A stretch of 64,000 nucleotides of DNA from Cliona cf. orientalis (Eukaryota > Porifera > Demospongiae > Clionaida > Clionaidae), in NCBI GenBank assembly GCA_963930775.1, contig OZ005699.1, positions 3,865,501 to 3,929,500 on the forward strand, given 5' to 3'. Below are positions 1 through 64,000 of the stretch, one piece after another. A program made the translations under genes and the position numbers. The notes beneath the pieces were generated by a model. It had not been told where the DNA came from. It did not search any database and worked only from the letters and a program-made list of their open reading frames with translations. The stretch's first letter is position 1; every line of letters starts with the position of its first letter.

Positions 1-907
1 GGCATATCCCCCATTCCGATATCCCATGTCAGTCGATATCCATAGGGTGTCTTTTCTCTCTTGCATCGTTGAAGGTTAACATGTAATGCAACCTCCAAAA
101 GTGATAAAAGCTGCAATCCAAACTCCTGAATCTGAGTATCGTTGATGGCTCCATCAAAGAAAATATGCGATTCGTATCTGTCATAAGTTCCATTGTCCCT
201 AGCAGCATCATCCTTTTGTGTGGAATAGTGGTTAGCCAAATTATAAATTGACTTTAGCATCTGTTTCATTTCAGTTTCATTTTCACGATACATGGTCGAG
301 CATACAAAGATTGTTCTGGGATGTCTGTGAATCGTTTCCCCTCTTCCAGACTCACGGTCGAGCTCATCATACATAACATGTTTTTTAGTCTGTCTATTCA
401 GAATCATATACTGCTCAAAGAATACACCATCATAGTGAGGATTTATGAACATTTCACTATCATCTGAGAGAATGATATTGGTCTTCACTAGAAGAAAGTA
501 GCCCATGGAAATTACCTCAACAAACCACAGCAGAAGAATGATGAACGGTGCATACTTATCAACAGTTGCAAAGGGAGTTTCTTCTCCTATGCTGAACTGT
601 GGAAAGGTGCCGGTTTTCATTTTGTATACATCAAGATAGTACCAAGTGACGGCAACTGGTGTTGACAACAGCAGTGGTAGCGCTAGACTGAATCGACTTA
701 AGGCCATTGCACAGGCGACCCAACCAATGATGTATGCTATGAATGTAGCAACGATCTGAACTACTACAGTTGAAATGTGATCACTATTTAAAGTGATGCC
801 GCATTCATTAAGGCACCATGGATCTGTTTGATGGACAGAGGCATATCGAAAGATAACATGGCTGATAAATGGATAGAAGAAGAGCCGCAGACCAGAATTT
901 ATGTAAC
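1..907 (-). CDS. chs-A exon 4: start of glycosyltransferase domain
   Basis: Open reading frame running off the left edge. The acceptor is ttctctag before position 907, and the exon begins with two bases that complete a Gly codon from exon 3. Matches to chs-B are dense: INSGLRLFFYPF against INSGIRLLLYPF, then DPWCLN, SLALPLLLSTPV, MGYFLLVKTNIILS, PHYDG, RQTKK, CSTMYREN and ESHIFFDGAIN. The N-terminal portion holds membrane helices followed by the first conserved block of the catalytic domain. Confidence 0.9.
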
Positions 908-3900: not shown

Positions 3901-6900
3901 GGTATTAATTTTGGCAATCCAATACCTACTGCCGTTCTATCACTTTTTAGCCAATCATGACAAGGGTGACGGTCAATGGATACAATACTTATTACATGTA
4001 CACATATCACAATATTGCATGGTAGACACGTTTGCCCCAGGGCCCTCTCAGTTTGTCTTGAATTGACTGTAAGGGGAAGTTCTGGATCTGGTATACTCCC
4101 CTATAGGTCCAATGAATTATCAGATATGCCATAATCACATAATAATAATAAGCATTTACTAAGTTAAGCTATGAACAATGTTTAACAATCTCTGTACAAA
4201 TTAGAGTGAACAGTTCGTCTGTTTGGCATGTAGCTACTTACCTCAGTACACACTCTCCTGCCACCTAAGAAAGGAGGCCAGAGCCTATGACTAGCTATTG
4301 TATTAGCAGCTGCCATACAATTTTAGTCACATGCACTTCAATTAATAATATTATAATGAAGAGTATTATTCCTACTAAAAGTTGTTACAGTATTCAATAT
4401 TATACTACTTCTGAATCATAATAATAATAATATTATTATGATCCACAAAAGTCATTGTAATGACAATCATTACTACAGTACTCAGATATTATAGGTATTA
4501 CATTCAGTTATGGTAGCAACTCTGAATGATGTTCTTATTTGGGGAATGGTTATTGTGAATTTATCATGATAATCACTCTAAAGTATAGTATACTGCATCA
4601 AAGAGCACCTAATTTCTGTTCCATTATTCACAAGTCCATTTGTAGTAATAGTTGCTGTCATGTGAATCAGTTTATGATATTCACTGACATAGTGGATGAA
4701 TATTATTATGAAATTATTGGTATTCACTCGAGACATGACTCATCACATGCTCTCCACTAGCTGAATCATAATAATAAAATGAAAGTGTGTGAGACCATGC
4801 ATACATGTATTATTGCAGCCATTGTTACTAAATACTTGGTACGTATAATGTATTTAAAGTGTGCTAAGGGTACATCTTATGGTTAGGAAGCGGACATGAA
4901 CAGTATACCGGTAATCAGCTTACCTGATTTATACCTTGCTGTAACATCCCCTCCTTTATATGGATCGTTGACTTTTTTCTGAAACCACGAGCTCCATACC
5001 AAAGATAGTGTTAGAATAGCCAGTGGAGCACCAACCATGGGCCGAACCTTATCGTATTCCAAATTGCTGCTATTCATGCCAATAACCCATGCAGCAATGA
5101 ATCCAGCAATGCCAAAAATTTGAAGCAAAAGAGCTATTAACTTCATCACTTTGTTCTCAAGAATGATTTGCACAAATCGTACGAAACGTTCCCTTAACGA
5201 AACATTGTGTCGGGAAGCTCTCAGCCGATCGTATCCATTTCTCTCACCCGCTGCACAGCTGCATCTGTTGTTTTGACACCAATACCAGTGGGGAGTTTTC
5301 AATGCATCAATAATGATCTGGAAGAAGAAAACTCCACAAAGCAACAGCATCCCTACTCCGGGTGAGAGTTGTGGGAGCACCAGGTACATAAGAACAGTCA
5401 TTGCAAGTACTTCCAGAATGGAGCCAAAAATGCCCTGCAGATATCAGTGATGATAGGTATTATTATTAATTATCATGACCTTGTATACACACTAAGTCTT
5501 AGCTAAGAAAACTATAGCTACTTAGCACACTGAGTCTCACGTATAGAATTGCTTTTCCTGTAGGCCATGGAAACGACGTGGTGGTTTTTCCAATCACTCC
5601 AACGATGAAGCACCTTACAAACGTGATGAACGATGGGATAAGAAGTATGAGTTGGATATACCAATAAAAGGTGACTCGGGTGGTTGCACGAGCCTCAGGG
5701 CTGTCCCCTTTGGCGATTCTGAGCTGATCTGTTAAAGTAACTAAAGTTAGTTTGCTTAGAACTGTACAAGCAAGGACCACGATGAGAAAGACAAGGCCAA
5801 TGGCTGCCTTGATGCCAAAGAGCACCCGCTTTGATGTCAACTGCTTTGTAGTTTCCTTTTCCTTTGTTGAAGATGATTTAAATTTCTTCTGATTTGGTGC
5901 ACTTATTCTGTAGTATAATACAAGAGAATAGATTATAGTAATGCACAGCACTGACACTGTGGGTGTGAATAATCTATATAAACATTAAATTTTGGACACC
6001 GGGCCCACGAAAATGGCCAAGGGATTCCTGAGATCATTCCGCATCAAACTACCACTTTAATGTTAATTAAATGCGATGGCTCTAAAGACTGCATAATTTA
6101 GTGCAATGGAATATAATGTAGCTAAATTGAAATTTAATTGTACCTAACTACATTTATAATGATGTGAATCATTATTGGTAGAGCCTGCCAATTACTGTGT
6201 AAAAATAATTAATAAATTAAATATTGGATTATTGTTTAACTGAAGCTGATTTTGCATTTTGGCATACACATTACAGTATCACTTATATTAATATTATTAT
6301 GTTTGACCCATGCAGACAATGCTTGTTTGCATGTAGTTATGTATGTATATACTCGATGTAATCAGGTTGATGCATGCAAATCATTCAAAGTACCTATATG
6401 AACCAGATACCTGAAAGATGATTATTACCAGTATTATAATCCACCTAATAATAATTATTATTATCCAAAAACAGTTATGACATGTTTTATGTCTAGTTGT
6501 ATGAACACTATAATTGGCATCCAGGATCTTGTGTGAAAGGGGAAACATGAATTCCTGATTTGGAGAGTTCTCATTTTCAGAATTATGACTTTGATATTGT
6601 GTAGTGACACCCACTAATAGTAGAGTGATAATGATGATGGTATTCATGGCAGTAGATTTCCTATGAATCAGTGATAGCTAGCTACTATACTATAATAATA
6701 TTATTATTCATTAATTCTTTGTCGCTTCTCTTTAAGGACATGCACCTAGCCTGATTGATGCCCTTTGAACCAGAATGTACAAATTAAACATAGACAGTGA
6801 ATTAAATTATAGTCACATGCAATCACATTCAATTTATATGAATGAAGTGAATATTAATCAACTCTCTAAACTTCATTTCTTTGCAATTGGATATGGTTGG

Positions 6901-7635
6901 GGGTGTGTAGAGTGGAAGAGCTAGCAGACATTTCCCAACTTTATCTCCACTAGATGAAACCCACCTAATGAACGAACAATCTAGTTGCTGCCATGCACTA
7001 GCTACATAGTAAGTGGGTGCTACAGTCAAGCCTCCTAAAGGACACTTTGGGAACAATACAAATTCAGCTGTTTTGTCCGTTATAGAGAGGTTGATGCTCT
7101 TCTTGGAGATTCTCAAGAATAGAAACTATAGGAAATGATAGTTTTTGGGACTCCAAACAGTCACGGTCCCCTATAAGGTTTATCATTCAGTGTCCCTTTT
7201 TCGGAGGGTCCTTTATTAGTGGTATATAAATACGTTTGTACAATATAAATCATCATGACTATCCATGCTATAGCCTGGGATCTTTGCAGTAGTTCAAAAC
7301 AGTTTTATTATTTTCTACTGAATGTAGCTATTAAACACATGAGGTGAAGCTCTCACTATAGCAACGTAACGGCTACAAAGTTAGCTATAATATTATATTA
7401 TTATACCCCTTTTAATACATTAGAAACACCACGAGATTAGTACAAGTATTGCACTGATAACCCTCTTTTGTCTATGATTATTGGTATACCTGTTTTGGCC
7501 ATTGAAGTCACCCTCAGCCTCCTCTGATTGGTGCTTGCTCAGACTGCTAGTATTCCTATGATAAGTATCTGAAATTGGAGAAGCATCACTGAGTTCCAGA
7601 CCACGATGAATCTTGATAGGCTTATTGGAGGCCAT
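1..7635 (-). CDS. chitin synthase chs-A, 5' part (gene cut by window edge)
   Basis: Membrane family 2 glycosyltransferase that would polymerise UDP-GlcNAc into chitin. The exon model (minus strand) is 7635-7490, 5907-5541, 5434-4924 and 907-1, continuing off the left edge. Phases agree: AG|A (Arg), phase 0, then G|GT (Gly). It encodes about 643 residues: a hydrophilic N-terminus of about 49 residues, several membrane helices, and the start of the catalytic core with CSTMYRENE and the WDIGMGDMP segment. No stop interrupts 907-1, which is homologous throughout to the chs-B catalytic exon. The DxD, EDRW and QRRRW motifs would lie outside the window. The start ATG at 7635 is the first in a 49-codon open stretch ending at a GTATAC donor; it is the least certain exon. 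The chs-B gene ends about 400 bp upstream in the same orientation. Confidence 0.87.
952..1382. mobile_element. repeat family with ACCCCGCG/CGCGGGGT ends, copy 1
   Basis: Short member in chs-A intron 3. Left GAGCTCTGTAGAGCACATAC, right CCCCTTGCGCATGCGCGCGG then GGTAATAAT. A GAC/GACA tract at 1283-1340 precedes the right end, as in the 10-kb copy. Confidence 0.62.
1472..1858. mobile_element. TA-flanked CAGTCCAACCTCGATTATCC element
   Basis: 387 bp. Ends CAGTCCAACCTCGATTATCC and its reverse complement with TA on both sides. Extra internal copies of TTCGGATAA sit near both ends. Ends of this kind fit Tc1/mariner-type (pogo-like) non-autonomous elements. Confidence 0.88.
1902..3326. mobile_element. 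TTAA-flanked GGTACC element, full-length copy
   Basis: 1425 bp in chs-A intron 3. Inverted ends of about 28 bp start GGTACCATTTAATTGCGTGG, and TTAA lies at 1898-1901 and 3327-3330. TTAA targets point to piggyBac- or Kolobok-type transposition; no transposase is encoded. It has a T run at about 2646-2672 and a second at 3051-3063. It is rich in CCACGCCC motifs. The same element occurs at 62766. Confidence 0.9.
3584..3800. mobile_element. TA-flanked element with TTTAATTCCCGCC ends
   Basis: 217 bp. Ends CCATATAGCCGGAAATATTA and the inverted AATATTTCTGGCTATACAG, then GAATTAAATTTGGCGG inverted further in. A partial relative is at about 33005-33060. Confidence 0.8.
3801..4923. other. AT-rich rest of chs-A intron 3
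   Basis: Contains short TAATAATATTATTA palindromes but no recognisable element, exon or RNA. Confidence 0.5.
4924..5434 (-). CDS. chs-A exon 3: membrane segments
   Basis: 511-nt exon, acceptor ctgcag before 5434 and donor GTAAGC after 4924 (phase 1). It encodes 170 residues with several hydrophobic helices. It opens GIFGS, contains YLVLPQLSPGVGMLLLCGVFF and ends TARYKSG. It aligns along its length with chs-B exon 3 (22945-23440), including the YKS ending and the splice phase. This is the block of helices that precedes the catalytic domain in animal chitin synthases. Confidence 0.88.
5541..5907 (-). CDS. chs-A exon 2: first membrane helices
   Basis: 367-nt exon, acceptor tactacag before 5907 and donor GTGAGA after 5541 (phase 0). 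It encodes about 122 residues: a lysine/serine/threonine-rich stretch, then helices with VLSKLTLVTL, YWYIQLILLIPSFITFVRC and GVIGKTT. It aligns with chs-B exon 2 (24069-24456). The upstream hydrophobic stretch to 5957 is open in the same frame, but the pairing AG|A with exon 1 favours the start at 5907. Confidence 0.85.
5908..7489. other. chs-A intron 1
   Basis: AT-rich. A mariner-like left end (TACAGTCAAGCCTCCTAAAG, about 7020) lacks a convincing partner. No exon seen; short ORFs here do not look like protein. Confidence 0.5.
7490..7635 (-). CDS. chs-A exon 1: cytosolic N-terminus (predicted)
   Basis: 146 nt, from ATG at 7635 to donor CAG|GTATAC at 7490, leaving two bases (AG) to be completed by exon 2. 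It encodes a hydrophilic peptide beginning MASNKPIKIHRG with no membrane segment, as expected of the cytosolic start of a chitin synthase. Support is positional and by phase: chs-B exon 1 also ends in AG with phase 2. The peptide itself has no recognised domain. Confidence 0.6.
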
Positions 7636-8034: not shown

Positions 8035-8519
8035 TTATGCTGGTTGATTAGGCAAGCTTGAAAGTTCCCAAGGTTCAACTAGGACCGGGTCTTCACTATT
8101 GCCAGGCCCTATCACTTCACTGGGTTGTGTGCGACCAAGGTAGTGTACCAGTGTGACTATGCGGTGGCAAAGTAGAGTGATGAATTGCACAATGATGATA
8201 AACCCATAGACAGCGAGGAAGAGGAGTTGAAACCCTCGAGAGTCCAGGCCATAGTCTTCAAGCTCAGGGAACTCCAATGTGTAGAGAAGAATGATCCATA
8301 AAATGTTTACAAGGAAAAGCAAAGCAAGGGTTTGGTTACGAAGGCTGCGGAGTGACTCCTTTAGATCTTTGATTTGACCTTGGAATCGGACAGAAACTGG
8401 CTTAAGCTTTTGATCAATCAAGGTTTTCCAGAAATCTGCTTCATCAGGTTTAGTTTTACGTATATCCGTATATGGAACGTTTTCAATTCTTGTAGCTGTT
8501 GTTCTTATCTTCAATTCCA
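8035..8519 (-). CDS. chs-B last exon: FWK block and C-terminal membrane pair
   Basis: 485-nt exon, acceptor tttgcag before 8519, stop TAA at 8037-8035. It encodes 160 residues. EADFWKTLIDQKLKP is followed by a charged helix (DLKESLRSLRNQ), a membrane helix (LALLFLVNILWIILLYTL), a short loop, a second helix (LLFLAVYGFIIIVQFITLL) and CHRIVTLVHYL. This is the C-terminal layout of animal chitin synthases (FWKxLI block, two helices, HRxxTLxHxL). It follows the SAM exons in phase (T|TG, Leu), which makes it the 3' end of chs-B and not of a third gene. Confidence 0.85.
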
Positions 8520-11500: not shown

Positions 11501-14500
11501 CCAGTACAAATTAATAGAAGTGATGATGAAAGATACCTCGATTCTACCTACATATTCAAATAGATGTAACAGCCACTTACAAGGAGTGGGTTTAACAAGA
11601 TTGTTAATCCCTGCCTTCAACCTTTGAAGATGAGCTGAATAAAGAATAAAGAGCAATGAAATCTCTGATAGGGAGCATTTGGAAATAGGGACACCATAAA
11701 GGACATCATTCATAGTTCTATTTCTTAAAAGTGTCTTTTATTTGAAGTTAATAAGCCATTATATGGTGTCATTCAGCCAAATTATTGTGTCAGATACTAT
11801 AAAGTTCATACCCCTCTTTGATATTCCCATTGCCTTGAGGTCATTCTCCTGTAGATCTTTAAGGTTTTCAATATCGGCACCAGTACTGTAGCCTTCTTGC
11901 TCAAATAGCTCTGAGTATTCATACAACTGTAGCCGTTTAAGCCATGTTCTCACATCTTCCTGTATGAGAAAAAAGCTGTAAGTATCCACTGAGAGGTTGT
12001 CAATGAAATCCATACGATCATATCTTGAAAGTACCGTAAAAAGCCTAATGGCACAAGTTGTTGCAGCTAGCGTAAGTCATCAGCACCTGACCATTTATGA
12101 CGTTCGTGACTGTATTTCGGCTCTGTATGTGCTATAAACCCGGAGTCAAATAAAATCCATTTAGTAGATAAGTCATTTATCTAATAAAGGTCACTATGAG
12201 CGAGTATGCTAGACCCATGATTTTATAAATAATTATTGGTGATCATTTCCACCTGTCGTCGACCGCCCAGTAGTTTGTAACAGTGCCGCGTAATGTTGAC
12301 CAATCGCTGATTTTTGTAATAAATCATAGAGTCGGTAGACTCTATAAGTAGAGATGGCACGGATACTCCATGTATATAATACATTACAAACATCCAAATA
12401 TCTCAAAAACAGGTAACTTTGTGAAATTCTAAGTGTCAAAATCAGAATCTACAGCAAATTATCTATCTAATAAGACCAAGATTATTCACTAGATGTTAAA
12501 AAAAAGCTATTTGTCAATCTTTCTTTCTTCTTTCTTTCTTTCTTTCTTTGTTTCTGTTTTCCTGGCCTAACTCAAGACTACCATGACCACTCACCTTAGT
12601 TTGAGTATAAATCCACTCAAATTTGGAGCGCCCACATCTGTGGCACGCTCGTTTTGTATTATCAGGATAGCGATTTAATTGTGTGTGTCTGATTAGCCAT
12701 TTTGTCATATAATGCGTATGCTCATGCAGTGTTGCCATGGTGAAGTCATGTGACCGATGTCAGTGGCGCGCATGCGTCGGCGCATCCACGATTGATCCAG
12801 GACCTGCTCAAGCACTCAGCAGATCGCTCAGTGAACTGTCGATTATGGTGGCTACTACAGGCCCGTAGCCAGACTTTTTAAAAGGGGGGTGCACATGTGT
12901 ATGGGTTTAATTACTATAATGTACTCGCAACAAGGGTTGGAATATTTCTTGCTGTTGTACTATACAATTTCAATGTACTACATGTAAAAAAGGGGGGTGC
13001 ACGTGCACCCCCCTGCACCCCCCCCCCCTGCCTACGGGCCTGTACTACCAATAGTAAACTTACAGGCCTATAAAATACGCTCCCGAAATAGAAGGTTTTC
13101 GTTGCTACTTGATTCTAAACAGCCTTCTAATCTTTCAAGTTTGCCAATCTAGCCAGCTTCAAGATCGAGATACCAAGGTGCGTGGTTTCAATCACAGTTC
13201 TCGAGTTGTCTCGAGAATCCCACAGAGGTGTGTTCAATAGTGTGTAATGCAAAAGAAGACATCCTAGCTAGCTATCAAAAGACTGCCTGGGATTTGCACT
13301 TAGAGAAGTATTCAAGTTTGAACTCACGGTGTGTTTGGGACACCATAGCTGCCTGACAAAAAGGCTAGGATCACACAAATATTATGCTGAATCAGTGATG
13401 TACCTGCTTCCCTATAATATTGTAGTATGTATTATTGTTAGAGCACGGTTGGATGTAGCTAGGTCCAGAAAATTTTTTTTGTAGTTGTAGCTGGTTCCAT
13501 GCATTTTATAACGATAAATAGGCAAACCATAATATCTGGTCACCATGGTGAGTCTCATGCCGGGCTTCTGTCCCCACGAGATTAGTCAGCTAGGTGGCAT
13601 TGATGAAAATTAATGACTATCATGCATGAACTACCCTGGGGGCACTAAAAAAAGAACAGTAACAAGTATAAAAAAACAATTGAATATGAATGCACAGGAG
13701 TGCAGAACCCTCACCGCTACACATACATGACTCATGCACATGTAGATCTATAGCATGTCTCAATGTGTATGCCTGCTCAATATCAGGAGTATTGAACTAG
13801 CCACATACCCTGCACCTGAGGTACTTGGGTTTTCTTTTGAGTCAGTGCATGATATACGCGTAGGGGGAAGGCACCTGGCTATGTTACTGAAAGCCTCTAT
13901 GACTTGTTACTTTAACTGAATTATGCACTTGAGAGCCATTGCCTATTTATACTGTCACTGCATTGACAACTGACCAGCAAGGCACAGAATGGCAACCACA
14001 GCTGCACACTACTACACAACTGGCTGGACAGGACTTAACGTGACCACTCCTCCTTGATGCCTTGTAATCCTCGGATGCGAACTTTCTCTCAGATGACCCT
14101 TACCATACAGACGGTTGGACTGATAGACAAACGGACGGACAGACGGACGGATGGACAGACAGACGGATGGACAAAAATCGCCAAATGATTGCAGTAACCC
14201 TCTGCCTACGCTTTGCGGTGAGGGTTAAAAATTGAAGGATAAAGTAGGGATGGCAGTGTGAAAAAATACACGAACAAGGTTTGTAGGAATAACGTATCAC
14301 ATCCACTATACATCCCTACACTTGCTTTTGAGTAGCCGTTCTCACACGTACTATATATGGGGCACATGCATGCAGGAATGGAGAAGCAATACATGGATCA
14401 ATGTCAAGTGACACTTTACATACTGAATCAGGAGTTTATGATGTTAATTATTGAGAAAAGCAAGCGTAGGAATGTATAGTGGATGTGATATGTTATCCCT

Positions 14501-17500
14501 ACAAACCTTGTTTGTGTATTTTTTCGCACTGCCATCCCTACTTCATCCTTTAATTTTATTATTATACTTGTGTACACTAAATACTTCCACCATCATCATG
14601 AATATCAAGTTTTATATCGAGTGAAACTTTCACATACGCAGAATGCACAAAATTAATACCATTGCCATACGTATATAATGCATGGTAAAACATGACCACA
14701 CCTGAGACCATGTATGGTATAGCTATATCGGTTGACAATAAAAGGTGGTCAACTATAATGATGACATACGCTAGCTTGATAACAGATACAAAATAATATG
14801 GAACATTTCAATTAGCCACAAACACGCCAAGGGTTCTTAATTTTACATTGCTCAACCTACTGGGTCATCCTTGTATATACGTAGTGATGGAAGCCTTTTA
14901 GCTGCCTTTTGAAGGCGTAGCCTAAAGCCTTTCTTGTCAATACCGATAGCTAGAAAATCCTGCAAAAAATACAATATCATTATTTTCATGTATCTAGGGT
15001 TCACCCCCATCATATTATGTTTGTGAATACATTTTTAAGTCTTGAAAAATTTTGCAATGATTCTTACCTCTGATCCCATTGCTGCAATGAAATGCAAATT
15101 GACATAACCATGCCTTTTGAAGTTGTCTTTGTACTCCTGTATGGAGAAAATATTTGATCAAACTGCTACAAGTAAGTAAACCTTAAGGTGATTAGTCTTT
15201 GTGGATATTAATGTTTGATACTTTTTTAGCTAAATTTTTGTACACCTGCTAATATTAGCTATACTAGGGGTGTGGTCTCAAAAGTTATGCACCTCTGGAA
15301 CCTTCCAAAACACATAATATTGCTTTCCTCCTAGATTTGCCCCAGGAGTAGATCATATTACATTATCTGGCATTACTTCTCTCAATCATGATGAAGGCTA
15401 TTGATAATCATCATAATGATTTTTTTCAGAGAGAAATAATGCCAGATTGAATCTAGTCATGGGAATGATGGAAATATACACAGAGTGTGTTCCCAAAATG
15501 CTCCTTCCCCCCCTCCCCTCACAATGGTAGCCTGGGTTCAAGGCTTAGACTGTGTACTAAGGATTACAAATCAGGAACTTACCAGACACTCTTGCTTTCG
15601 CAACCATTGAAGAGTTTCTTTCCACTTTAACAATTTCCGTTTCTTTTCTAACGGTTTAAGTTCTTCCTCTTTCTGTTTAATTTCTTGTTTGATTTGCTCT
15701 ATCAGTCGTTTCCATTCTTCTTCTGACCATTTTGACTGTTGACATTCGTTGTGATATCTTATTTTCAGTTGTCTATGCTCTTGTTCCAATTGTTCAAATT
15801 CTTCCTCCACCTGGTCCAGGTTCTCATCTAATTGTTGAAACTCCTCATCTGAATCCACTAGCAGAGAGTCTGTGTCTTCTAGATCTTTAGGTGATGGTGC
15901 TGAAAGCAATACTGAAAGAGCTAATCAGAAAGGTATGTGATTTGATTACAAACTAGAGCTCTGAGAGCACATACCCCATGCTGACGTTGCACAATATGTA
16001 GATCTACTTTTGTGTGCATGATTATAATTAATTTTAGTAATTTTAAGTGGAAATGCTGTTTAGTCCCAGTGATGTTAGCTGCAAAAAATAACTCTGTACC
16101 AAACTAGACAAGGAAGATATATATGAACTTCTATTATGTATAATATAATATTATAGCTACCGTAGGACGGGTTTTAATTGCGTAGTTTAATAATTGCGTT
16201 GTAGTCAAGTCAGGCCAAATTGCGAATCCAATAATTGCGATAGACGACCCCGTACCGTACTGTAGTTTACATGCACGTTTACGTTTGCGAATCTATTAAT
16301 TGCGAAGCGTACAAACACTCGTAATTCGCAATTAATAGATACTCGCAATTAAAACCCGACCTACAGTATCTTATTATTTTGGATCCATAGGTCTTCAGAT
16401 TTCAATCATTAGATTTGGATAGCTAGCAGCCAAATATTATACATGATATCGCGAGCATTCGATGATTTCATATAGTTGTGCGGCAGAAAGCATTATTGTT
16501 ATGCACTCAAATCGAGGGACCAATATTATAGGCACTATTGATAGGTATAATATTATACCGTACCCTCGCGAAAGAGGGCCCACTACGGAATGTCGGCCCA
16601 CTCCCCACTTTGAGCTCAATTTCCTGCTAAGGTCTAGTGTTTACTCGAATATGCACCCATGCGAAGCTGCCTTTGAAAGCACAGTTCAAATGCATGAAAT
16701 GGCTGGACTGTACTTTGAATAATCTATGTAAGATCGATAAGTAACGTGATAAACAGCCGTAAAACTAAGCCTAGCTAACTTTGTGCCACGTTTCAGCACA
16801 AATAAACGATCATACACGGCTAGCGATCGTAGCCACACCCACTGAATATGGCTGCACTCAACGATACACGGTGAAGTATCGTAGCCGCCCTTGCTCTGGA
16901 TTGGTAACCACGCTTGAATAAGGCTGAAGCTAGCGTGGGTAACTTATCTGGGCATTCTTTCGAGCGAAACTGATACCTCGAATATCGGCCCATCCCCCAA
17001 TTTTGGCCTAACGTAAGGTGCACCGCCCGTGGGCCCTCTTTTGCGAGGGTACGGTATTATTATGGCTATGGAAGCCAACAAAAGCACTATTTAATTTTGT
17101 GACACTTGTGGACCCGTGTCCCTCGATTTGAAGAACACTACAGCCAATTTTTCGCTGAATTCAATTGATTCGTTGTGCATACAAGTTGCATAGGTGCCTG
17201 TGTTATATCAAGATGTGGCTATGTTTGTGCTAACAACAACAACAATGCCGACACGACTGACTATTTTACCCCTTGCACATTCGTGCAGGGTAATAATTAC
17301 ATACATACACACATGCAGCTGTACTTACACTGAGTATGATGTGTCGGGACAACTTTTGTCTCTTGTTCTTGTACAGATTTAGGTGGACTCTCTTCAAGAC
17401 TCAGATCTAGAGTTGCTTCCTTCTCACGTGATTCTCTGCGACAACACCAAATACAGCAAGCTACACATTTCCTAAAGCAACCTTGTAGGTGGTCCCACCA

Positions 17501-20500
17501 TCCAAGAAGTCCTTTATCTTTTCCGCTATTTCCTTCTCTCGTTCCCCAGCTCTGGCTGTCCAAGTTAGCAGCTGAGTAAATGAGCAGTAGTAGATAACCC
17601 GAAGGCAAAGCAAGCAGGTACCACACACAGTGTAGAAGGCAGTACCACTCTGGCAAATGGAGTATTGCAGCGACTAAGAAAGTGACAGCAAAAGCTCCTA
17701 GGTAGATTGTACTAGTGCTGACGGGAAGAATAAACTTTGGCTTCCATAGGCTCTTTGATAGTTCTTCAATGTACCTAGCAGCTTTCTTACAATTTTCAAG
17801 AGTTTCGGCATCAGCTGTGATGTTTGAGGTTGAATTAATACAGGAAGGAGGTCTCAGTACTTCTGGCTGATGTCCATGGAAAATACTGTAAATAGTATCC
17901 TTGAAGATCCCAACAATAACTATAGACATAATGATGGCAAATATGAAGGTCAACACTTTGGCCATGTCTAGCTGAGTCTGAGAACTGCTTAGCAAACACA
18001 CTATACCATAAAAGACACTGACAATGACTAGAATAGTTATTATCACCAATGTATCGGAAAGCGTGAGCTTAAATGCTGACTGCAATCCACTGGAAATGAC
18101 CAAAATGACAGTTGCTGGAGAAATTGCTGTGGAGAAGACCATTATAGCCTGGAATATAATGAAGAGAATGGAAACAGTATCATTCCTTCTGGTGATACTT
18201 CCAGCTTCAGATATGAGCTGAGCTAAATTGGCGATTGTTGAAGGAATCCAGCGACGCCGTTGCTTAAAAAACTCATTAAATTCTGTTGGGCAGTAGGTTT
18301 GATCTTCTGATATGGCACAGTATTCAAGTCGCCAACCTGCTTTGATTAGGAGTGTGCATAGCCAGCGATCTTCACCCATGTCCTTCATCAGAAACTCCAT
18401 TGCTCCTATTGCTTCAGTCGAATATGTTTCCAAGACATCCTTCAGTGCACTACAACGAAATACACTAAAGCATCCAGGAGAGCAGAGCACACACCCAAGA
18501 ATGTGTTCAGCAGGCTTTTGGAACCAGTGGCCAATGGCGTAATCAAAGATCTGATACCAGTATAAGACTCCAAATCCCTTGGGATGAGTCCGAGCACAAA
18601 CAGCTCCAACTCGCTCATTTGAAGCAAGCATATCTAAGAGCACATCTGCAGATAGAGGAGTGAAGTCAATATCAGCATCTGTAGTCAAAATAAAGGTATC
18701 ACTGGCGTTTAAATGTTCCGTTCTAATTCTGTGGTTCAAAACATAGTTCATGTACATGACTTGGCTCCATCGCTTCTTTGGCTTGACCAAGGATTTGTCT
18801 TTGAAGTGAACAGTGAAGGGCATTTCCCCCATTCCAATATCCCATGTCAAACGGTATCCATAAGGTGTCTCTTCTCTTTTACATCGTTTGAGGTCAACAT
18901 GCAGAGTCTCTTCTAGTAGTGACAAGAGTTGCAGTCCAAACTCTTGGATCTGAGTGCCATTGATTGCTCCATCGAAAAAGATATGAGATTCATATTTATC
19001 ATGGGCTCCCCTTTCTCTAATAGTTGCTGAATAATTGCAAGCCAGGTTGTAAATTGAAGAGAGCATTTGTTTCATTTCAATTTCATTTTCTCGATACATT
19101 GTTGAACAAACAAAAATTCTTCTTGCATTTCGGCGTATTACATCTCCCCTGCCATCTTCCTGGCCAAGATCTTGGAATACACTTTTCTTTTTAGTCTGCC
19201 TATTTAGAATCATGTGTTGCTCAAAGAAAATTCCATCATAATGTGGTGTCAAGAACATTTCACTGTCCCTTGAAAGAATAATGTTGGTTTTTACTAAGAG
19301 AAAATAACCCATAGCAATTAGTTCACCAAACCATAGCAATAACGTCAGTATGCACATAAGAACGTACTTGTCAATCTTTCTTACTGGATTCTGGTCATCT
19401 GATTCAATTGTGAACGTGGGAAATACTCGATTCTCAAGTTTAAAGGAATATGTGCTTAGATAGTACCAAATGATAGTCACTGGAGTTGAGAGGAGCAAAG
19501 GAAGAGCAAGACTCAGTCGACTAAGGATCATGGTGCAAGCAACCCAGCCTACAAGGTATCCAATGAATGTAGCCACCACCTGAACTATCATTACTGGTAA
19601 GTGATCATTACGCAGTGTTATGTGACATCCAGAATTGAGACACCAAGGATCAATGTGGTGTTCAGACAGATACCGGAAGATAATGTAGCTGACGAAGGGA
19701 TAGAGCAGGAGTCGTATGCCAGAGTTTATAAAACCTATGATGGTTTAATATCTTACATATTGGGGATGCAAATAATATGTAGCGTTATTAAGTGCATGCT
19801 GTAGCCATTAGCTATTATTTATTAAGCGCATGCGCTTATTAGGTGTGGTATTACAGATAGCTGCCGCTCAAGATGGTAAGTGCCGGTGATTTGTTCTGTT
19901 TACCATTATAAGCATATGTGCTTTAATTAACCAGAGTATACGGTATGTACCTACATCAAAATAAGAATGTATTCGCTCGATCAGATGCCGCGGCTGCTAT
20001 TATTAGATTTTTATCGCCCGAATTTGTGTAGCGTTTATTCGAGAGCGGTGACTATTCGAGAAGGGCATTAATTAACACAAGTAGCTGCCAAAAAGGCAAT
20101 CTGTAGAGAAATGGTTGATTGACACCACTGAACTAGGAGATTCTGGTCCCTTTGCTGATGTAGAAGAAGGTTAGAACTTGTTCTAGAAGACTTCTAAGTA
20201 TTTATCTTGTAGATACCTGCCATCAAGAACGAAGGCATGTTCACATGCTATCGTGCTTCTAGAATGGTAGGCGTGGCGCAGCTACTATTCGAGAGCAGCG
20301 ACTATTTTGTTCAACACTTCCAGATGTGTGGCGATTAATCGAGTCTGATCAAGAGAATACGGTATTCCATATGTAGCCTCATTGATATACCACAGTATAC
20401 AACCATTATCAGTATCCAATGAATAGGGAGTATACTAATAATTGTGCACAATGTCATGCTTTTATCAAATGTACATTTCTGGCTGCTGATTTCCGATGAA

Positions 20501-23500
20501 TTGTACAAGATTCTCAGCTAGGCTAAGGACTGCCTAGCCTACGTATACGTTTGCACAGCGCTTCACTATTATTAAATTCTTCACACTACAATGACGTAAT
20601 ATTGTCAAATAGAAACCATACATGTACACTTTACGGCCGTGCTTGAACGTTCACGAGTCATAAGCCATAGTCTGTGGTAATACTGACATCTATGAATATA
20701 ATTAACATGCAAACGGCCGCATGGAGAGCCATAGATGGCCTCCAGCTCGAGAAGCGGCCAAAAAAGCGATGTCTGATGGTTACCTCCACATGCTCAACAG
20801 ATACTATACAATTGGTTTAGCATGATCAATGGAGTGCTTGTCCTAAAATTTTATACAAGCCGAGTTACAATCCCAAAAGTACCGCACAAGTGGCATAAAA
20901 AAACACATTTTCACTCGTAACTTTTGTCCAAAGAGATATTTTTTGAAGCGCTCCATTGAGTAAGCAGTACTTAGTCCTGCTACCTTCGGTATTGCTAAGG
21001 ACGCCAGCCTGTGTCTGCAAGTTCACCGCATCAGCGGATCAAATCTTCCAACATACCGTATATGTTCTAATACAAGGGTGTAGACAGGTGGGGGCTTGGG
21101 GGGGGGCTTTAGCCCCCCCCCCCCCCCCCCCCCCCCCCACTTTTTGAGCAATAATTTATGTACTATATATGGGATTGTTAAAGTTAGATGAAATTCTCTG
21201 AAATTCTAGTTGTAATCATAGTTGGATAGCAAAAATGTGCAACAAATTTGGGAAATAATTGCTGGAAATAGCTGTTTTTAAGGTTCTGGACACAATAGGA
21301 TCAAAATTTTTCGCGCGCTTCGCGCACAGTTGTCACAAAGCCCCCCCACTTTGAAATTTGTGTCTATACCCTTGTAATATAGGCGCCACCCTAATTTTGG
21401 CGCCCTTTGAGACCTGCGCAATTTTTTCGGTTCTAATTTAAGACGCCTTTCTGGAGATCAATTATTTTTAGGCAGCGCCTATTTAATTGGAACGTATTGC
21501 CACGTGAAATATGCATATGGCAATACCACGATACCGTACCGCCGTACCATCGATTGATCTATCGAGCTAGCAGTTTAGATGTCAAACTAAGCTGTCTCCT
21601 ACACTTATATGGGCACTTACTGACTACTTTGATGAGTCTTTCTGGAGTTAGAGACAACCATTCTGATGGCTACGGTACCGATAACTCGAGAATGATTCAG
21701 TGATCAGAGTAAAATTTCCAAACAGAACTGAAACCAGAACCATATTTTTGTTGTTCTCGCCACATATTGATTGCCACTAAATAGGACCGATTAGTGATAG
21801 CGCTTGTGCTCTGGCAAAACTTACAGCACCATTCTAATTTGCAGCTCTTAGGCGCCTCCCTAATTTAGGCGCCCTTTGACCTGCTCGTGAATTTTTCAGT
21901 TCTAATTGGAGGCGCCTGCACAATCTGTAATTAATTTTTGGGGGCGCCTATATTAGAAAGTATACGGTAGGTTTGTTTATTGCATCATATGATGAGTATA
22001 ATGACGTCATATTGAGGGCGTGCCCATCTTAATTAAATTCTTTTGGTCTGTTGTTTACATCTATACTTTCAATTTTAATTTATGATCAAGTGATATGGAG
22101 ATATAGTGTTACAACCATGCACGACAAAACATGTCTTCAACAGGCCTCCCAGTCCTTAATGCTGCCGAGTTTGCAACACTGGGACCACATATGGGTATAT
22201 AGCATGCGGTAAAAATGTACTAATGTGACGAGGGTTTTGCACTGTAATATATAGGTGTGCACTTAATTACTGAATACATAGAAATTTTTACCACGAAAAA
22301 ATTTTTGTTCTGCATTAAAGATTGTGTAGAGGATATGGTGAGCATTGGTGCAGTGAAATTTCTCTGCAATACAAGCTGGGCTTGGCGAAATTTTTATTCA
22401 GCATAACTTTCACGTATACAGTATTAGATAAACCACTGATGGAAGCGGTTTCGCTATCAGTTTAGCCTAGGTAATAAAAATGGTCACATACCGTAGAAAC
22501 TGGTTGTTAAGTGCTGCTCGCTGTTAAGCGCATTGTTTTGTGCGAGCTTTACTGCTCTTCGTTAGGCATATATACCCAGCAAGCAACTGAACGACGAGCA
22601 ATCGGTTACGTGAGCCCAGAAAGAAAGCTAGAAGTATATAGGCTGGAGAAGAAAATGTCGAGAATTACACTCTCTGGTCGCTTCTTGGCCATCACTGTAG
22701 GCCATTCTACCCTCGACACATTCTTTACGCACGCCCCACCTACCGTGTTTTAGCACTTCTAATTAAGTGTATGCTTCCCGTTACTTGAAGCGCATACTTT
22801 TTGTTAAGTGCATATTTTCTTGCTGCCGCGTGTTATAAGCGCATGCGCTTAACAACCAGTTTCTACGGTATAACATTATGTAGTCCACTACTCACATAAT
22901 TTAAGATACATAGAATCTTGCAGTTATTGCTAATTACCACCTACTTGATTTGTATCTCGCTGTGTTGTTCTGTTGTTCCCTCCTGTGTGGCACAGCAATG
23001 TTCTCCTGGAACCATGTACTCCATAAGAAAGATAGAACAATAATGCATAGAGGATATCCAACCATCGGTCTGACCATATTGTATCCACGATGCTTCATGT
23101 GGACAACCCAAACACCAATGAATCCAAAAATACCAACTATTTGAAACACCAGGGCTATGATTTTCATTACTCGATTTTCAAGTAGAAGTTGTACAATGCA
23201 GACCACGTACTCCACCTTTGATTTCTGATGTATGTGAGAAGAGTCATGTCTCTGCTGTGTACGTAAACATTCATCATGTTGACACCAGAACCACTTTTGA
23301 GTGTAATAACAGTCCACAATTATCTGACAGAAGAATACTCCACAAAGAAGAAAAATTCCGGCTCCAGGTGAGATTTCAGGCAGAACAAGATAAACAAATG
23401 TAGTCATGGCTACAACTTCTGCACCAGAACCAGCAATACCCTGGAAAAACATACACTGATAAATCTACAACATGTACATCATTATAGAGCTAACCTGCGC

Positions 23501-26500
23501 TTTGTTTGCAATTGTGCCACACCCTGGAGAAATTACGGTCCAAAGGTGTTGCTATGCATGCGTATGGCATTTGCACATACTACGCGTGAACCGGAAATCA
23601 ATTATATAGATGGACCTGGGCAGAGCCATTTGAAATGAATGTAAAGATCGAGCAAGGGTCAAATTTCATCATTCGTAACGAAAGCTGATTATTCTTCGAT
23701 GCCCAAGAAGTTTAAAAGGTGAGCAAACGTACAGTAGCTAATTTGATGAATCTAGCTGTATCCAGATACCCCGCTGGCAGGAATTCTAATTAACACCCAT
23801 AGCAACGGGCTTTGTGTATAGCAGCTGTACAGACTACGTAGGTCAAGATGATGGCTTATCAAGTTCGCCATTGTAACTTATGGTCAGCCTCCGTAGACGA
23901 TAGCAATAGTTAGTAGAAAGGTTCTTTGACATGAATACGACAAAAAACTCAACTAAGTCCCATACGCCGGATTTTGTCAAAATTAATACGGTACCATCAC
24001 ATAATATTAAGGAATTGAAATTAGTTGTACCCCCATCCCACTTTATTTCCAATGTACTCCAGACTTACCCAGAATATAGCCCTTGCTTTGGGCCATGGAT
24101 AAGTTCTGGTTGTTTTTCCGATCACTCCAAATGCTAGACACCGTACTAGTGTTATGAAGTTAGGAATGAGCAATACCAATTGAAGATACCAGTAGAGAGT
24201 CACGGCAGTAGTGCGCTCATGTTCAGTGGTATCTTTCTTTGATGCGTTTGGATAATAGGTGACATTCCTAAGTCGATCAGCTAAGCTAACAAGAGTAAGC
24301 TTGCTGAGCACTGATGATACAAGGACTATAACCAAGAACACAACTCCAATGAAGCCTTTAATGCACAATAGCATCCTCTTTGTTCTCACTGTATCCACTG
24401 GGGTTGCATTTTGTTTTGCTTGAGTCCTGTTTAAGGAAGATTCTGGATCTGGTGTCCTATTGTGACGATCGTAATATAATATCAGATCTACATGTTATAA
24501 TTATGGCACAGGGCCACGGATTTATGGCAGTAAACCCATCCGAGTCCGAGGGCTGTTTACGTTGCCATAAATCCCTGGCAATTATGCTATAGTTATAACT
24601 ATTATAATATATCCCATCTTATTGGTCAGTAGTGCGGTGCGCTCCTAATTACGAATCAGGAATCAATCATCCATTACTCGATCTGGCAGTTCTGCCACAT
24701 GGCAAGTTCAATAGTGAAGAAGCTGTTAGCTATAGCTAGCTAGATGCTATATAGCCGAGTTTGTCACAGTCTTTCTTTGCTGATTTATTTATACTTGATA
24801 GAACTTTACTATGTATGAGTTTCCGTGTCTATGCAAACAATGTCTACTGCCTGTGTTGCATGCATACAGTATGTGTATGGTGCCATAGTACTAGTGCTGG
24901 TGCACATGCAAATGTATTAGGCATAGTGATGTGACTACTTGTGTGAATTAAAACAGTGGTTCTGATTGGTAAAAATAATTGCTACAGGGAGGAATATATG
25001 GATTATATATTCCCTTGTACCCCTCAGGGAGAAAATATAATTATAACAGTTATACCCCACTTGCTATAGTACATAGGTGGGATATAATTACGAATTATTA
25101 TACACAGGAATACACAAAGAATGAAGCACTAGTGCAAAACCCTCGGCGTGCAAGCACTGAGCAATATTATCTGTCCAACATTACTGCAAGATGCTCATAT
25201 GGACTTCCTAGCACAATGTCAGAGTAACCATAAGAAATATACGTTGTACGCGATTGCGTAATGTCCAGCATTATCACGTGTGCAATACTGCATGTGTCAG
25301 CAGTTTATAGCATGTAGAGATAGCCAAGAAGCTTCTCTGCCAGTGTACTACGATCAGTGATGAACCAGTCGTGTTGTTGGATCTGTAACTAACCATATAT
25401 ATTTTTCGAGTTGAAAGGAACCCATTGCTGTCTCATTTAGTTATCTATCGAAAGCTTACCAGGGAGTGAGGAATGGCAGCGATGACCGGCAAATGGCACC
25501 AGAATTCTTGAACAAAGTGTTTTCAAGGGCGAAAACACCATAATGAACCCTATAAAACTTTGTTTGCAACGTAAAAATGAGGTAGACAGACAGACACACA
25601 CACACACAGAACGACTACCGCAACCCTGTGGCACATGCACCGAGGGTTAATTATATATAATATTATATTATACACACATCTTAGTAGGTACATTCTTGCA
25701 GATCAATGTAAAGTACCAATTACCAACAGCTGAGTGAGCAATTAGCACACTTTTGAGTACAATTAGGGCAGTAATCAGTACTCTTAAGTGTATGAGTACA
25801 GTCAGTAATAGTATGAGCGACAGTGAGTGCTACCATAAATTGCGAATATTTCGTTGTTAACATATTTTCGGACAGCCCGGCTTGTGCGAAAATTAAACGC
25901 ACGAAAATACATGCGCAATATTAACGATAATGTGGTACAGGGTTGTTTGTCCGAAAATTGTTTAACGTGAAAATTTATCGCATGAAATATTCTAGACACG
26001 AAATATTCGCGATTTACGGTATTTGGCTGTATGAGTACACATAAGAGTACTGTTACTGTCCTAATTATACAGGATTAGGGTGTATGATTACCGATCAGAC
26101 GCCACTCTCGATTAGTGGCTGCTCTTGAATAGTCGCCGCACCTCCGGAAGTGCTGAACGAAATAGTCGCCGCTTATATGAAAGTAATGTATTATGACTGT
26201 AATCACTTATTATCAGAAATATTATCATCGACATAGGGCCTTTACAGTATTTGGATTTGGTGGACTGGAATGATGGAATGGACTGGACTTGAACAGTGGA
26301 ATGGATTGTGGAAAGCAATGGAGTATTAAGGCGCATGTGCACATGGTACCATCTTTCATCATATAACAACATCACTCAAGTTCTTGGTTTGTGATGCTGT
26401 ATCATTAGGATATTGTCAAGGGGGAGATGGGCTCAGGGGACTCATAGCTACAGTAGGGCCTGGTAGGGCCTAGGCCCTACCAACCGATTCTACCTAAGCC

Positions 26501-29500
26501 ACACCAGGTATATGCGATGGTTGTGATCGAGATCGAAAACGCCGCGTGCTAGTGCGCTCGGTTTACTGGCACGTGACGCTGTAGAACTTACATATTAATT
26601 ATGCAGCGCAGCTTGAAGACGGCTTCTGGGCAACAACTGACTCTCTTTCAGTGTGTGGACTCTCAAAGTCCAGGTACAACACGAGTCAAACTGATGTTAG
26701 AAGATGACTAAAGCAACTAACAGTGACTGTGATGGAGACAGTAGTCCTGTTTTACTCCCTGAAACAGATGAGTTGCTGTTGGACTCAGAAGGCTCACGTG
26801 AGGAATGTGAAACGTCATCACACCATTCAGTACCCGGTAATCAAACTAACAATAATATTACAGTCAAGAACCCTACAGGTCCTACTACTCTCGTTATTAA
26901 TAGCTCCCCATCTACTAGCTCTACTGCAAGAGCTCAGTCAGCTTGCCCGAAAGTACTGGGTGATATTGCATCAACTCCTGCATTTCCTCCCGTACAACCT
27001 ACAAATATTAAGTTCCCAGCTACTGTTATTTCTGGAAAAGCTAGGGCATTTAACCCGACATGGTACAATATCTATCCATGGTTGGAGTACTCCACACAAA
27101 GAGAAGCATGTTACTGTTACAGTTGTCATCTATTTGGCTCTGGAGCTGGTTCCAAATGTGAGCAATCGTTTACAGTGGTGGGGTTTAGGGATTGGAAGCA
27201 TGCTACTGGCAAAGGTGGTCTGGTTTCAAAGCATGATAGCAGCTGTGCTCACAGAAAATCTATTATTGCATGGAATCAGTACAAGATCTATTCACAATGT
27301 AAAACGTCTGATCGTCTTGGAATGTGTAGGGCTGAACATGTTGCACAAAATCGGCACTATATCAAAACACTTGCTGAAATTATCTTGTTGTGTAGTCATC
27401 AAGAGGTTGCACTTCGTGGCCACAGGGAAGGAGAGGATTCAATCAATAGAGGGAATTTTTTAGAATTATAATCTCCTTGCTGCAACTCATGATACAATGA
27501 TAAATGAGCGATTCAAGAATGGTCCAAAGAATGCATAGTATACTTCTCCTGACATACAGAATACTCTTACAAATGTAATGGGTGGTATGATGCAGGAGTC
27601 GATCTGTTCATCTGTTCGAAAGGCCAGTGCATATTCAATCCTTGCTGATGAGACGAAGGATTGTAATAAAAAGGAGCAACTCGCCATTGTAGTGCCTATG
27701 TTGATGTTGAAGCTGTAAAACTCGATGAACATTAATTTTTGTAACTTATGTTGAGGCCACTGCTTTGGATGCTAATAGTCTTTCAGCATTTATCCTTGAT
27801 GCTTTGAGAGAGAATGAGCTAGATCCTCAATGCATCGTGAGTCAGGGATATGATGGTGCGTCGGTCATGAGTGGACGTTGTGCTGGAGTACAGCAGAAAA
27901 TATGCGAAGTTGTTCCCCATGCTACCTATGTGCACTGCTATGCTCACCTTCTCAATTTGGTTCTTGTAGACAGTACAAAATGTGTATCTGAAGCATCTGA
28001 TTTCTTCTCTCTCATGGAAATCCTCCATAGTTTTTTTATCACGGAGCGTTACCCATGCTATTTTCCTCCAGAAGCAGTCTGAATTACAGCCAAACAAGCC
28101 ACAAAGACAATTGCAGGGTACATTTTGGCTCATATCTCCATGACGAATCTCGTTATGTACAGACTTACTCATTGGTATTTAATCACAGGGTTTCCCCCAA
28201 CCTGCCAAGGAGCATCAAGTCTAACCACTTTCATATGGAATTCCACGCCCTTGCGCTCTGATAGTCTTGGGTTTGGGTCTGCTGATAGTCTATGTTCAAT
28301 AGAAATTATATGCGTAGCTATAGTTAATAAATTTATAGTCTCTAGGATTTTGTTAAGTAGACGGAGACGATTGGATGCTGTTTTGCCATCTCTGGAGCTT
28401 CAAGTCTTCAAGAAATTTCAACTTGATATGAAATCCATTAGGTGGTGGAGGTAGGCAATCAGGGGCGTAGCCAGGGGGGGCACAGGGGGCATTTGCCCCC
28501 CCCTTTTTTCCCAGAGTCATGTAATATTTATCACTTCTTACCGTATAAATACCAGCACCAAGTCAAGGGCGGAGAACAGGTAACAAAAGTGGGGGGGCTC
28601 AGACATTTGACTGTGACAGCAGTTAGGCTGTAGGCATATGACCACAGCCCACCTAGGGGGGTCTGGGGGCATGCTCCCCCAGAAAATTTTGGAATTTTCG
28701 ACTTTCTGAGAGCGTTTCTGATGCATTCTGGCAGCAGTTTTTGGACTGATTTAGTAGCAATTTTTACTCGAGCACTCTTTTGCAAACATCTACATATTAT
28801 GACAGAACTATGTTGCTGTACTTTTGTAGTATGGGATTGTGAAAAAATGGGGGGGCTCAGCCCCCCTTGTTTCCAAAGTGGGGGGGCTGAAGCCCCCCCT
28901 GCCCCCCCCTATTTCTCCGCCCCTGCAAGTTGTTACAGCAGTCTTCAGAGTCAAAAATCATCACAGAAAAGCTGACTAAAAAGCTATCTGTAAACGAACT
29001 TTCGAGCTATGCCTCGATCGAGCAGTGTCTAGTCTGGAATCTCGAACGTTTGATGAGTTCAAAGGGCACAAAACGGAGCGCGTGATTTAATTAGTGGGTG
29101 TGGTTTCCGGTCTAAAATTTTTCGCGCGCTTTGCGCGCAATCTTGCCCCTTCTTTTCTAAAATCCTGGCTACGCCCCTGGCAATGCTGTGTTTGTATCTC
29201 ATCCACCCCCAACTTCTGGGTTTATCAAAACCATAGATAAAATTGAAAGATGATTCAGCTGCTCAATATAGATGTAGTTCTGCCTGGGCCAGGGTGCCAA
29301 ATATTGAAGCTTTTCGCTACAGAGACTGCTAGACTCCTCAAATATTATTGAACGCCGGCCCGGCGGGAGACTAGGAGATTTCATATCTTACTGTGGCCAG
29401 CTGAGACAACATGGCCACAGTAAGATACAAAACCTCCTGAGCTAATAGTACCTTGGAGGTAGCTCTGATAAAAAGACAGTTAATTTAATACCACCAGGAC

Positions 29501-62765: not shown

Positions 62766-64000
62766 GGTACCATTAAATTGCGTGGGCGTGAGGTGGGGGA
62801 TATGACACCTAAACCACATCAAAGTCATTAGTGAGGTGCATGTTGTGTAACCACGCCCTTTTAATTGCACAGGTCTCAGGGGTGTGGCTGCTAGAGCCGG
62901 AAGTGTTCATTTAATATCCTCCATGGACCGGAAGCCGAGCCGGAAGGGAGGGGCCAGGCCACGCCCAAAACAGCCCCACCCTGTTCCCCAAGGACCACCA
63001 TTCTCAATCAAGTGCCTACTAACCACCGGATGTCCACCGGAAGCCCACAATCAATCCCAATTAAAACACACAGCTTCCTCAAGGCCAAAACACACACAAA
63101 CACTTGGAGGCCGTTCTGCCACACCGCCCACGCAAGAGCTCACCTCATTTCCTGTGTGGGCGGAGTAACAACACGTCATCGCAACCACATCCGCTTCAAA
63201 CCGTCGTCAGCTTCCGTCCAGCCGTACGGGCCCCTCGATCGCACCGCCGTACAGTGCCTCATTAACAGACATGGCCTCACCTTTGACCTCCTGCCACGCC
63301 CCCAAAGCCTCCTCGCGGGGTTCAAAGGTCACCACCGCTTCCGGGACACGCCCACCTATCGCCGAGGCCAAGTCCCAGGCGCCGATGTCCAAGCACTGGC
63401 CCGTGAAGCCACGCCCAATCGGAAGCAATAAAACCTGCATTAACGCACACGCACACACTCCACACAGTGCCAGGAACACGCCCACATGCTTAATTAGGCC
63501 TAATAAGCTTTTTTTTTTTTTTTTTTTTTTTTCAAGGCGACCAGAACACTAAGCAGAAAAAAAAATTGTCCAAAAACCACCATATAATCGAGCTGGGTGC
63601 ATAGTGGAACCATACAATGCAAGCAGGCAGCCTAAATTTCAATTTTGTCAAAAAATTGGTAAAGGTCGTCACGTTCATGTGCGCGCGTGGCCCCGCCCCT
63701 CACGTAGCGCGTGGGCGGAAACATTGCAAACGCATGGCTTCCCTGTACAAACATATGGGGAAACTTCAAAGGGCCGTAACTTTAATTCTAAGGCGTGAAT
63801 CAAAATTCCTGAAGGTCAAATCTCTGCATTTGATCCATTCTGCGCGCCGGTGCAAAAATTATGTCCCCAAGTGCTCCCAGTTCCCCCCTGAATTAATTAA
63901 TTAAAAATCTTTTTTTTTTTTCAAGGAGACCACACACTAAGCAGAAAAAAATTGTCCAGAAACCACCACATAGTTCTTAGTAGACCCATACAATGAAGGC
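62766..64000. mobile_element. TTAA-flanked GGTACC element, copy 2 (runs off window)
   Basis: Preceded by TTAA at 62762-62765. Starts GGTACCATTAAATTGCGTGG and follows copy 1 (1902-3326) closely through about 63880. It then repeats an internal unit (T run, CAAGGAGACCAC, ACTAAGCAG) that copy 1 has only once in this orientation. Its right end is outside the window. Confidence 0.88.

Follow-up and report, generated by a model that had tools for sequence, protein, structure and literature searches.

A coiled coil and a tandem SAM pair in the predicted cytosolic loop of a probable type I chitin synthase from the sponge Cliona cf. orientalis

Introduction

The 64,000-nucleotide (nt) stretch of the Cliona cf. 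orientalis genome considered here (GenBank assembly GCA_963930775.1, contig OZ005699.1, positions 3,865,501 to 3,929,500 of the forward strand; hereafter the window, with position 1 being its first letter) carries on its minus strand a chitin synthase gene, referred to as gene A. Its predicted product was assigned to the metazoan type I chitin synthases by domains and motifs, and it possesses a cassette composed of a coiled coil followed by two SAM domains (SAM1 and SAM2). This cassette most likely resides in the cytosolic loop between the SWG motif, which follows the interface helix IF3, and the transmembrane helix TM5, and would hence be located beside the elements that form the dimer in solved chitin synthases. 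A paralogue directly downstream, gene B, shares the SAM pair and lacks the coiled coil. These findings bear on the question of how chitin synthases are arranged in animals to produce fibrils as a group. Assigning the cassette to the cytosolic IF3-TM5 loop, on the basis of homology to solved structures, yields a testable position.

Domain architecture of gene A

Joining the exons of gene A from exon N2 (starting at 24456) to the stop codon at 8035 resulted in a frame of 1486 amino acids that contains no internal stop. The catalytic exon (CAT) ends in phase 1 at a GT donor, and the coiled-coil exon (CC), the SAM exons S1a, S1b, S2a and S2b and the C-terminal exon (CT) continue this frame, with all introns from CAT through CT being of the GT-AG type and exon phases that agree throughout. 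An earlier sequence-only reading of this DNA had proposed that six exons with matching phases build one reading frame, which is borne out by these results, and the exon joining is confirmed at the level of a predicted gene model. For the acceptor of the CC exon, position 15899 was used in the model, and an in-frame alternative 12 nt upstream, at 15911, fits equally well. The start of the gene A coding sequence, upstream of N2, was searched for by similarity to the first exon of gene B, and no match was obtained.

Within the CAT exon two N-terminal-side membrane helices are followed by the GT2 chitin synthase domain, the QRRRW motif, five hydrophobic segments, the SWGTRE motif and a Cys-rich block. 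The Pfam family Chitin_synth_2 (cut-off 27 bits) matches gene A with 94.5 bits and gene B with 86 bits, and direct reading of the translations identified the motifs EDR, QRRRW and SWGTR in both. A profile search of the joined gene A protein with the Pfam families SAM_1 and SAM_2 (cut-offs 23 and 20.5 bits), which the sequence-only reading had named as a check, revealed SAM_1 matches in two stretches. When scored alone, SAM1 reached 41.3 bits with SAM_1 (E 2e-10), and SAM2 reached 45.1 bits with SAM_2 (E 1.2e-11) and 41.7 bits with SAM_1, so that two tandem SAM domains, each above the cut-off by itself, are indeed found where they had been proposed, namely between the coiled coil and the C-terminal membrane pair. 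The coiled coil, which follows WGTRE and precedes the last membrane pair, was assessed with a crude, home-made heptad score, which in gene A was matched by only 4 of 500 shuffled sequences. Myosin motor domains, which occur in part of the type II enzymes, were absent from the Pfam matches both of the complete gene B (E <= 0.01) and of gene A without its first exon (E <= 1).

The downstream paralogue gene B

Throughout the genome (216.8 Mb in 149 contigs) Chitin_synth_2 was found twice, once in gene A and once in gene B, which lies directly downstream on the same strand. The complete reading of gene B comprises 1445 residues and extends from window position 7635 to position 6679 of the neighbouring locus L009. 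Its four SAM exons (69, 99, 148 and 54 nt) are identical to those of gene A in length and phase and are contained, with short introns, in approximately 0.75 kb between the catalytic and the C-terminal exon, whereby the S1b-S2a intron measures 71 nt as compared to 2.9 kb in gene A. Both SAM domains of gene B likewise score above the cut-offs when taken alone (SAM1: 42.1 bits with SAM_1; SAM2: 38.6 bits with SAM_2 and 34.6 bits with SAM_1). In contrast, the gene B stretch matching the coiled coil of gene A has a heptad score that was reached by 495 of the 500 shuffles, meaning that gene B possesses no coiled coil.

Pairwise comparison of both genes revealed identities of 72.3% for the catalytic exon, 71.7% for SAM1, 59.1% for SAM2, 63.8% for the C-terminal exon and 50.5% for the N-terminal exons; for the coiled-coil exon 27.8% was found over 54 aligned residues, with 52 further residues being present in gene A only. 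From these segment identities it was concluded that the SAM domains, unlike the long coiled coil, are a conserved part of the enzyme. The ratio of nonsynonymous to synonymous substitution was not used as a test, the synonymous sites being saturated or the value incomputable in most segments. In a tree built from 25 of 30 SAM loci of the same genome, the four SAM domains of genes A and B and six solved SAM domains (L019, L024, L032, L033 and L034 were left out as fragments, stop-containing or poorly read), the SAM1 domains of A and B form one group (100/98) and their SAM2 domains another (96/95). This pairing suggests that the SAM pair was already in place before the duplication that gave rise to A and B, a long-branch warning applying to these groupings. 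Genome searches with the S2a and S1b peptides gave matches in genes A and B only.

Following SWGTRE, a Cys-rich block of the form RKCxACCxWCCRRE is kept in gene A (RKCVACCIWCCRRE, at approximately 17359-17393) and in gene B (RKCIACCLWCCRRE, at approximately 8120-8180 of L009). Situated beside basic residues, this block resembles a cytosolic palmitoylation site and may serve for lipid attachment.

Scanning with the catalytic-exon alignment returned 277 pattern-matching stretches in bacterial and archaeal contigs and 16 in viral contigs, and relatives were found among neither.

Membrane topology and position of the cassette

The gene A stretch ending with SWGTRE was found to align with solved chitin synthases, namely 7xs6 (E 3.9e-5), 7stl (E 8e-5) and, weakly, 7wjm (E 0.086, over residues 682-745). 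For PsChs1 the SWG motif (residues 741-743) was reported to be part of a flexible cytoplasmic loop that connects IF3 to TM5, with TM5 being a long helix that extends into the other protomer (PMC9556331), and the yeast Chs1 dimer was described to involve TM5 and a swapped large cytoplasmic loop (PMC12653383). As the SWGTRE region aligns with solved enzymes in which the SWG loop is cytoplasmic, the cassette most likely faces the cytosol, immediately ahead of the helix that forms the dimer. The charge distribution at the last membrane pair points in the same direction, since six (gene A) and five (gene B) basic residues were counted in the 25 residues preceding TM5 and the hairpin connecting the final two helices is acidic in both. 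The cytosolic side, which had been assumed in the sequence-only reading, thus gains support from homology to fungal and oomycete structures obtained by cryo-electron microscopy and from the charges at the last membrane pair, and the proposed architecture stands. N-glycosylation sequons were not seen in the loop, an uninformative count given that approximately 1 would be expected in gene A and approximately 0.8 in gene B.

Possible function of the SAM pair

The closest solved SAM pairs, aligned over both domains, were identified to be those of Caskin-1 (3sei, E 5.6e-10), ANKS1B (2kiv, E 1.9e-8) and Caskin-2 (4is7, E 2e-8), with the Caskin-1 alignment covering residues 7-135 of the 139-residue query and residues 14-139 of 3sei. 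Caskin-1 pairs were described to form helical oligomers and Caskin-2 pairs to form dimers which oligomerise; the SAM pairs of SARM1 were described to close into an octamer ring.

It is suggested that the coiled coil, SAM1 and SAM2 form a cassette inserted into the cytosolic SWG-to-TM5 loop of a metazoan type I chitin synthase, where, at a place at which protomers already meet, the tandem SAM would provide either a surface for head-to-tail self-association or one on which another SAM protein could dock. As a consequence, several synthases may become coupled to each other, or synthases may become anchored to a cortical scaffold. The coiled coil, being present in gene A only, could add a second contact that would be tunable separately. 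Taken as a whole, this combination of a cytosolic-loop cassette with SAM-mediated self-association or docking is the explanation favoured here, albeit with modest confidence. Within it, the position of the loop and its cytosolic side are derived from homology, and self-association of synthases is the preferred and a plausible reading; for self-association itself, for the partner and for the effect on chitin it is only their inference that is put forward.

A number of observations weigh against this explanation. In CASKIN2 each SAM was reported to depend on a glycine at the N-terminal end of helix 5; in both sponge genes this residue is retained in SAM1 and replaced by alanine in SAM2. At the same column, other SAM stretches of the genome show glycine in 14 of 30 and alanine in none of 30, a crude count obtained from 30 loci fetched out of 45 listed SAM matches, some of them partial. 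As SAM1 possesses the helix-5 glycine and SAM2 an alanine, one SAM interface looks able and the other uncertain. For the arrays of synthases that the sequence-only reading had envisaged, the oligomerising Caskin pairs would speak in favour and the alanine of SAM2 against, and that reading is regarded as partly supported overall. Moreover, according to the alignment only some of the charged contact positions of CASKIN2 seem to be kept. Regarding the topology, the catalytic region matched six distinct sequences in the PDB at E <= 0.01, none of them being a solved animal chitin synthase, and the C-terminal exon matched nothing there at E <= 10, which is why the labels TM5 and TM6 for the last two helices rest on their order. 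Finally, the same region is predicted to lie outside in the insect papers drawn upon, as is the case for the coiled coil of Drosophila Kkv, predicted to be extracellular (PMC9894549).

The foremost rival explanation, which is a real possibility and yet the less probable one, assumes that the SAM pair is closed within the molecule, in the manner of ANKS1B/AIDA-1, and that, rather than linking synthases, it binds some other protein, for instance a trafficking factor or a SAM scaffold. ANKS1B ranks among the closest solved relatives, and the loss of the helix-5 glycine in SAM2 fits such a closed unit. Furthermore, a partner of the kind required exists, since two adjacent stretches at another site of the genome, L002 (G000:C7:9415121-9415294) and L034 (9415782-9415919), encode a Caskin-like SAM pair; L002 groups with the Caskin SAM1 in the SAM tree (94/86). 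A closed unit is disfavoured by the best match being Caskin-1, as the Caskin-1 pair oligomerises, and by SAM1 retaining, besides the glycine, an acidic head position.

A second rival, considered unlikely, holds that some of the transcripts, or even the majority, leave out the cassette and would encode SAM-less isoforms. The exons from CC to S2b sum up to 687 nt (317+69+99+148+54) and are flanked by phase-1 introns on both sides, hence skipping them would maintain the frame. However, the identity of SAM1 between genes A and B equals that of the catalytic exon, and the SAM exons were consequently reasoned to be used enough to be kept.

Much less probable still is a loop that faces outside, with the SAM domains acting in the matrix or lumen. 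Simple hydropathy places five segments behind QRRRW and another two close to the C-terminus, and if all five were counted as membrane-crossing, the loop would be located outside, in line with the prediction for the insect coiled coil. Yet the segment preceding SWG corresponds in the solved enzyme to IF3, which in PsChs1 runs flat along the cytosolic face and is frequently mistaken for a transmembrane segment in predictions (PMC9556331), and the charge pattern around the last membrane pair likewise argues against an outward orientation, as would the Cys-rich block shared by A and B with its likeness to a cytosolic palmitoylation site. The cytosolic placement preferred here disagrees with, and calls into question, the prediction that the coiled coil of insect enzymes is extracellular. 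The idea that the SAM exons constitute a separate gene within a long intron, for which the long introns of gene A (S1b-S2a in particular) would leave room, was rejected as highly improbable in view of the compact layout of gene B with its short S1b-S2a intron and matching phases, with the S1b and S2a exons moreover having no other match in the genome.

Going beyond the self-association and docking suggested above, it may be conjectured, rather doubtfully, that in early animals the IF3-TM5 loop became a plug-in site for self-assembling modules, i.e., the SAM pair and an optional coiled coil. SAM-linked arrays or rings of type I enzymes would then be an animal equivalent of the rosettes of cellulose synthase, and the insect coiled coil would be intracellular.

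Exon coordinates and neighbouring features

The exons of both genes are compiled in Table 1. The 2.9 kb S1b-S2a intron of gene A harbours an inverted repeat (14228-14557; arms of 102 nt, 92% complementary, spacer of 126 nt) that looks like a small hairpin-type mobile element. Directly upstream of gene A broken open frames are found on the plus strand (26701-28454) which appear transposase-like by eye; two of these frames gave no Pfam match at E <= 0.001. The translated frames at approximately 2031-2600 and 62895-63500 are nearly identical, indicating a repeated element close to both ends of the window, and for the frame at 62895 no Pfam match was obtained.

Table 1. Exons of the two chitin synthase genes, given in window positions
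Feature	Position	Strand	Basis
Gene A, N2, N-terminal membrane exon	24069..24456	-	frame and gene B alignment
Gene A, N3, N-terminal membrane exon	22945..23440	-	frame and gene B alignment
Gene A, CAT, catalytic exon	17329..19734	-	open frame, Pfam Chitin_synth_2 94.5 bits, hydropathy
Gene A, CC, coiled-coil exon; SAM1 starts at its 3' end	15583..15899	-	splice sites, phase, heptad score
Gene A, S1a, SAM1 middle exon, 69 nt, phase 0-0	15068..15136	-	frame, Pfam, gene B exon match
Gene A, S1b, SAM1 last exon, 99 nt, phase 0-0	14861..14959	-	frame, Pfam, gene B exon match
Gene A, S2a, SAM2 first exon, 148 nt	11812..11959	-	frame, Pfam, gene B exon match, own-genome SAM_1 match
Gene A, S2b, SAM2 last exon, 54 nt, helix 5	11581..11634	-	frame, Pfam, gene B exon match
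Gene A, CT, C-terminal exon: FWK block, basic helix, last membrane pair, stop	8035..8519	-	frame, gene B alignment, hydropathy, charges
Gene B, first exon, ATG at 7635	7490..7635	-	frame reading
Gene B, exon N2	5541..5907	-	frame reading
Gene B, exon N3	4924..5434	-	frame reading
Gene B, catalytic exon, part within window; remainder and SAM exons in L009 (8035 down to 6679)	1..907	-	frame reading

Comparison with known systems

The presence of two SAM domains in a type I chitin synthase is to be expected from published work. According to Zakrzewski 2014 (PMC3942024), one or two C-terminal SAM domains are present in most type I chitin synthases of metazoans, and all sponge, cnidarian and choanoflagellate enzymes of that study count as type I; the enzymes described here are likewise SAM-bearing, with two SAM domains each in A and B. 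The doubling, in which the sequence-only reading had seen a possible novelty, is consequently not new. The SAM-bearing loop and the coiled coil are not discussed in the passages of Zakrzewski 2014 drawn upon. Among cnidarians, almost all full-length chitin synthases were reported in 2023 to carry at least one SAM, the function of which was said to be not well described (PMC10216261); the SAM is hence shared with the sponge enzymes, and some of the cnidarian enzymes additionally carry EGF domains. The same work states that type II chitin synthases are without SAM domains, whereby the type I/II naming in its text and legends disagrees with that of Zakrzewski 2014. The literature basis further includes PMC4994250, PMC10252437 and PMC12431666, and in the open-licence papers considered (figures and supplements being outside the scope) no statement was met that places SAM domains in the IF3-TM5 loop; no priority is claimed.

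Compared to the nearest solved SAM pairs, those of Caskin-1 and Caskin-2, the sponge pair differs in its context, as Caskins are soluble scaffolds, and in having alanine in helix 5 of SAM2, where Caskins possess glycine in both helices 5. With PsChs1, ScChs1 and CaChs2, gene A has the GT2 core, the QRRRW motif and the SWG loop in common, but in these enzymes the SWG-to-TM5 loop is short or forms a swapped dimer contact, and the passages drawn upon describe neither a SAM nor a long coiled coil for it. No SAM is described for the fly enzymes Kkv and Chs2 in the corresponding passages either. A likeness, in layout only, is nevertheless given by Drosophila, where Kkv with a coiled coil after WGTRE and Chs2 without it parallel gene A and gene B, respectively. 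In the sponge, the SAM pair being present in both genes and the coiled coil in one, A and B constitute a clean natural comparison.

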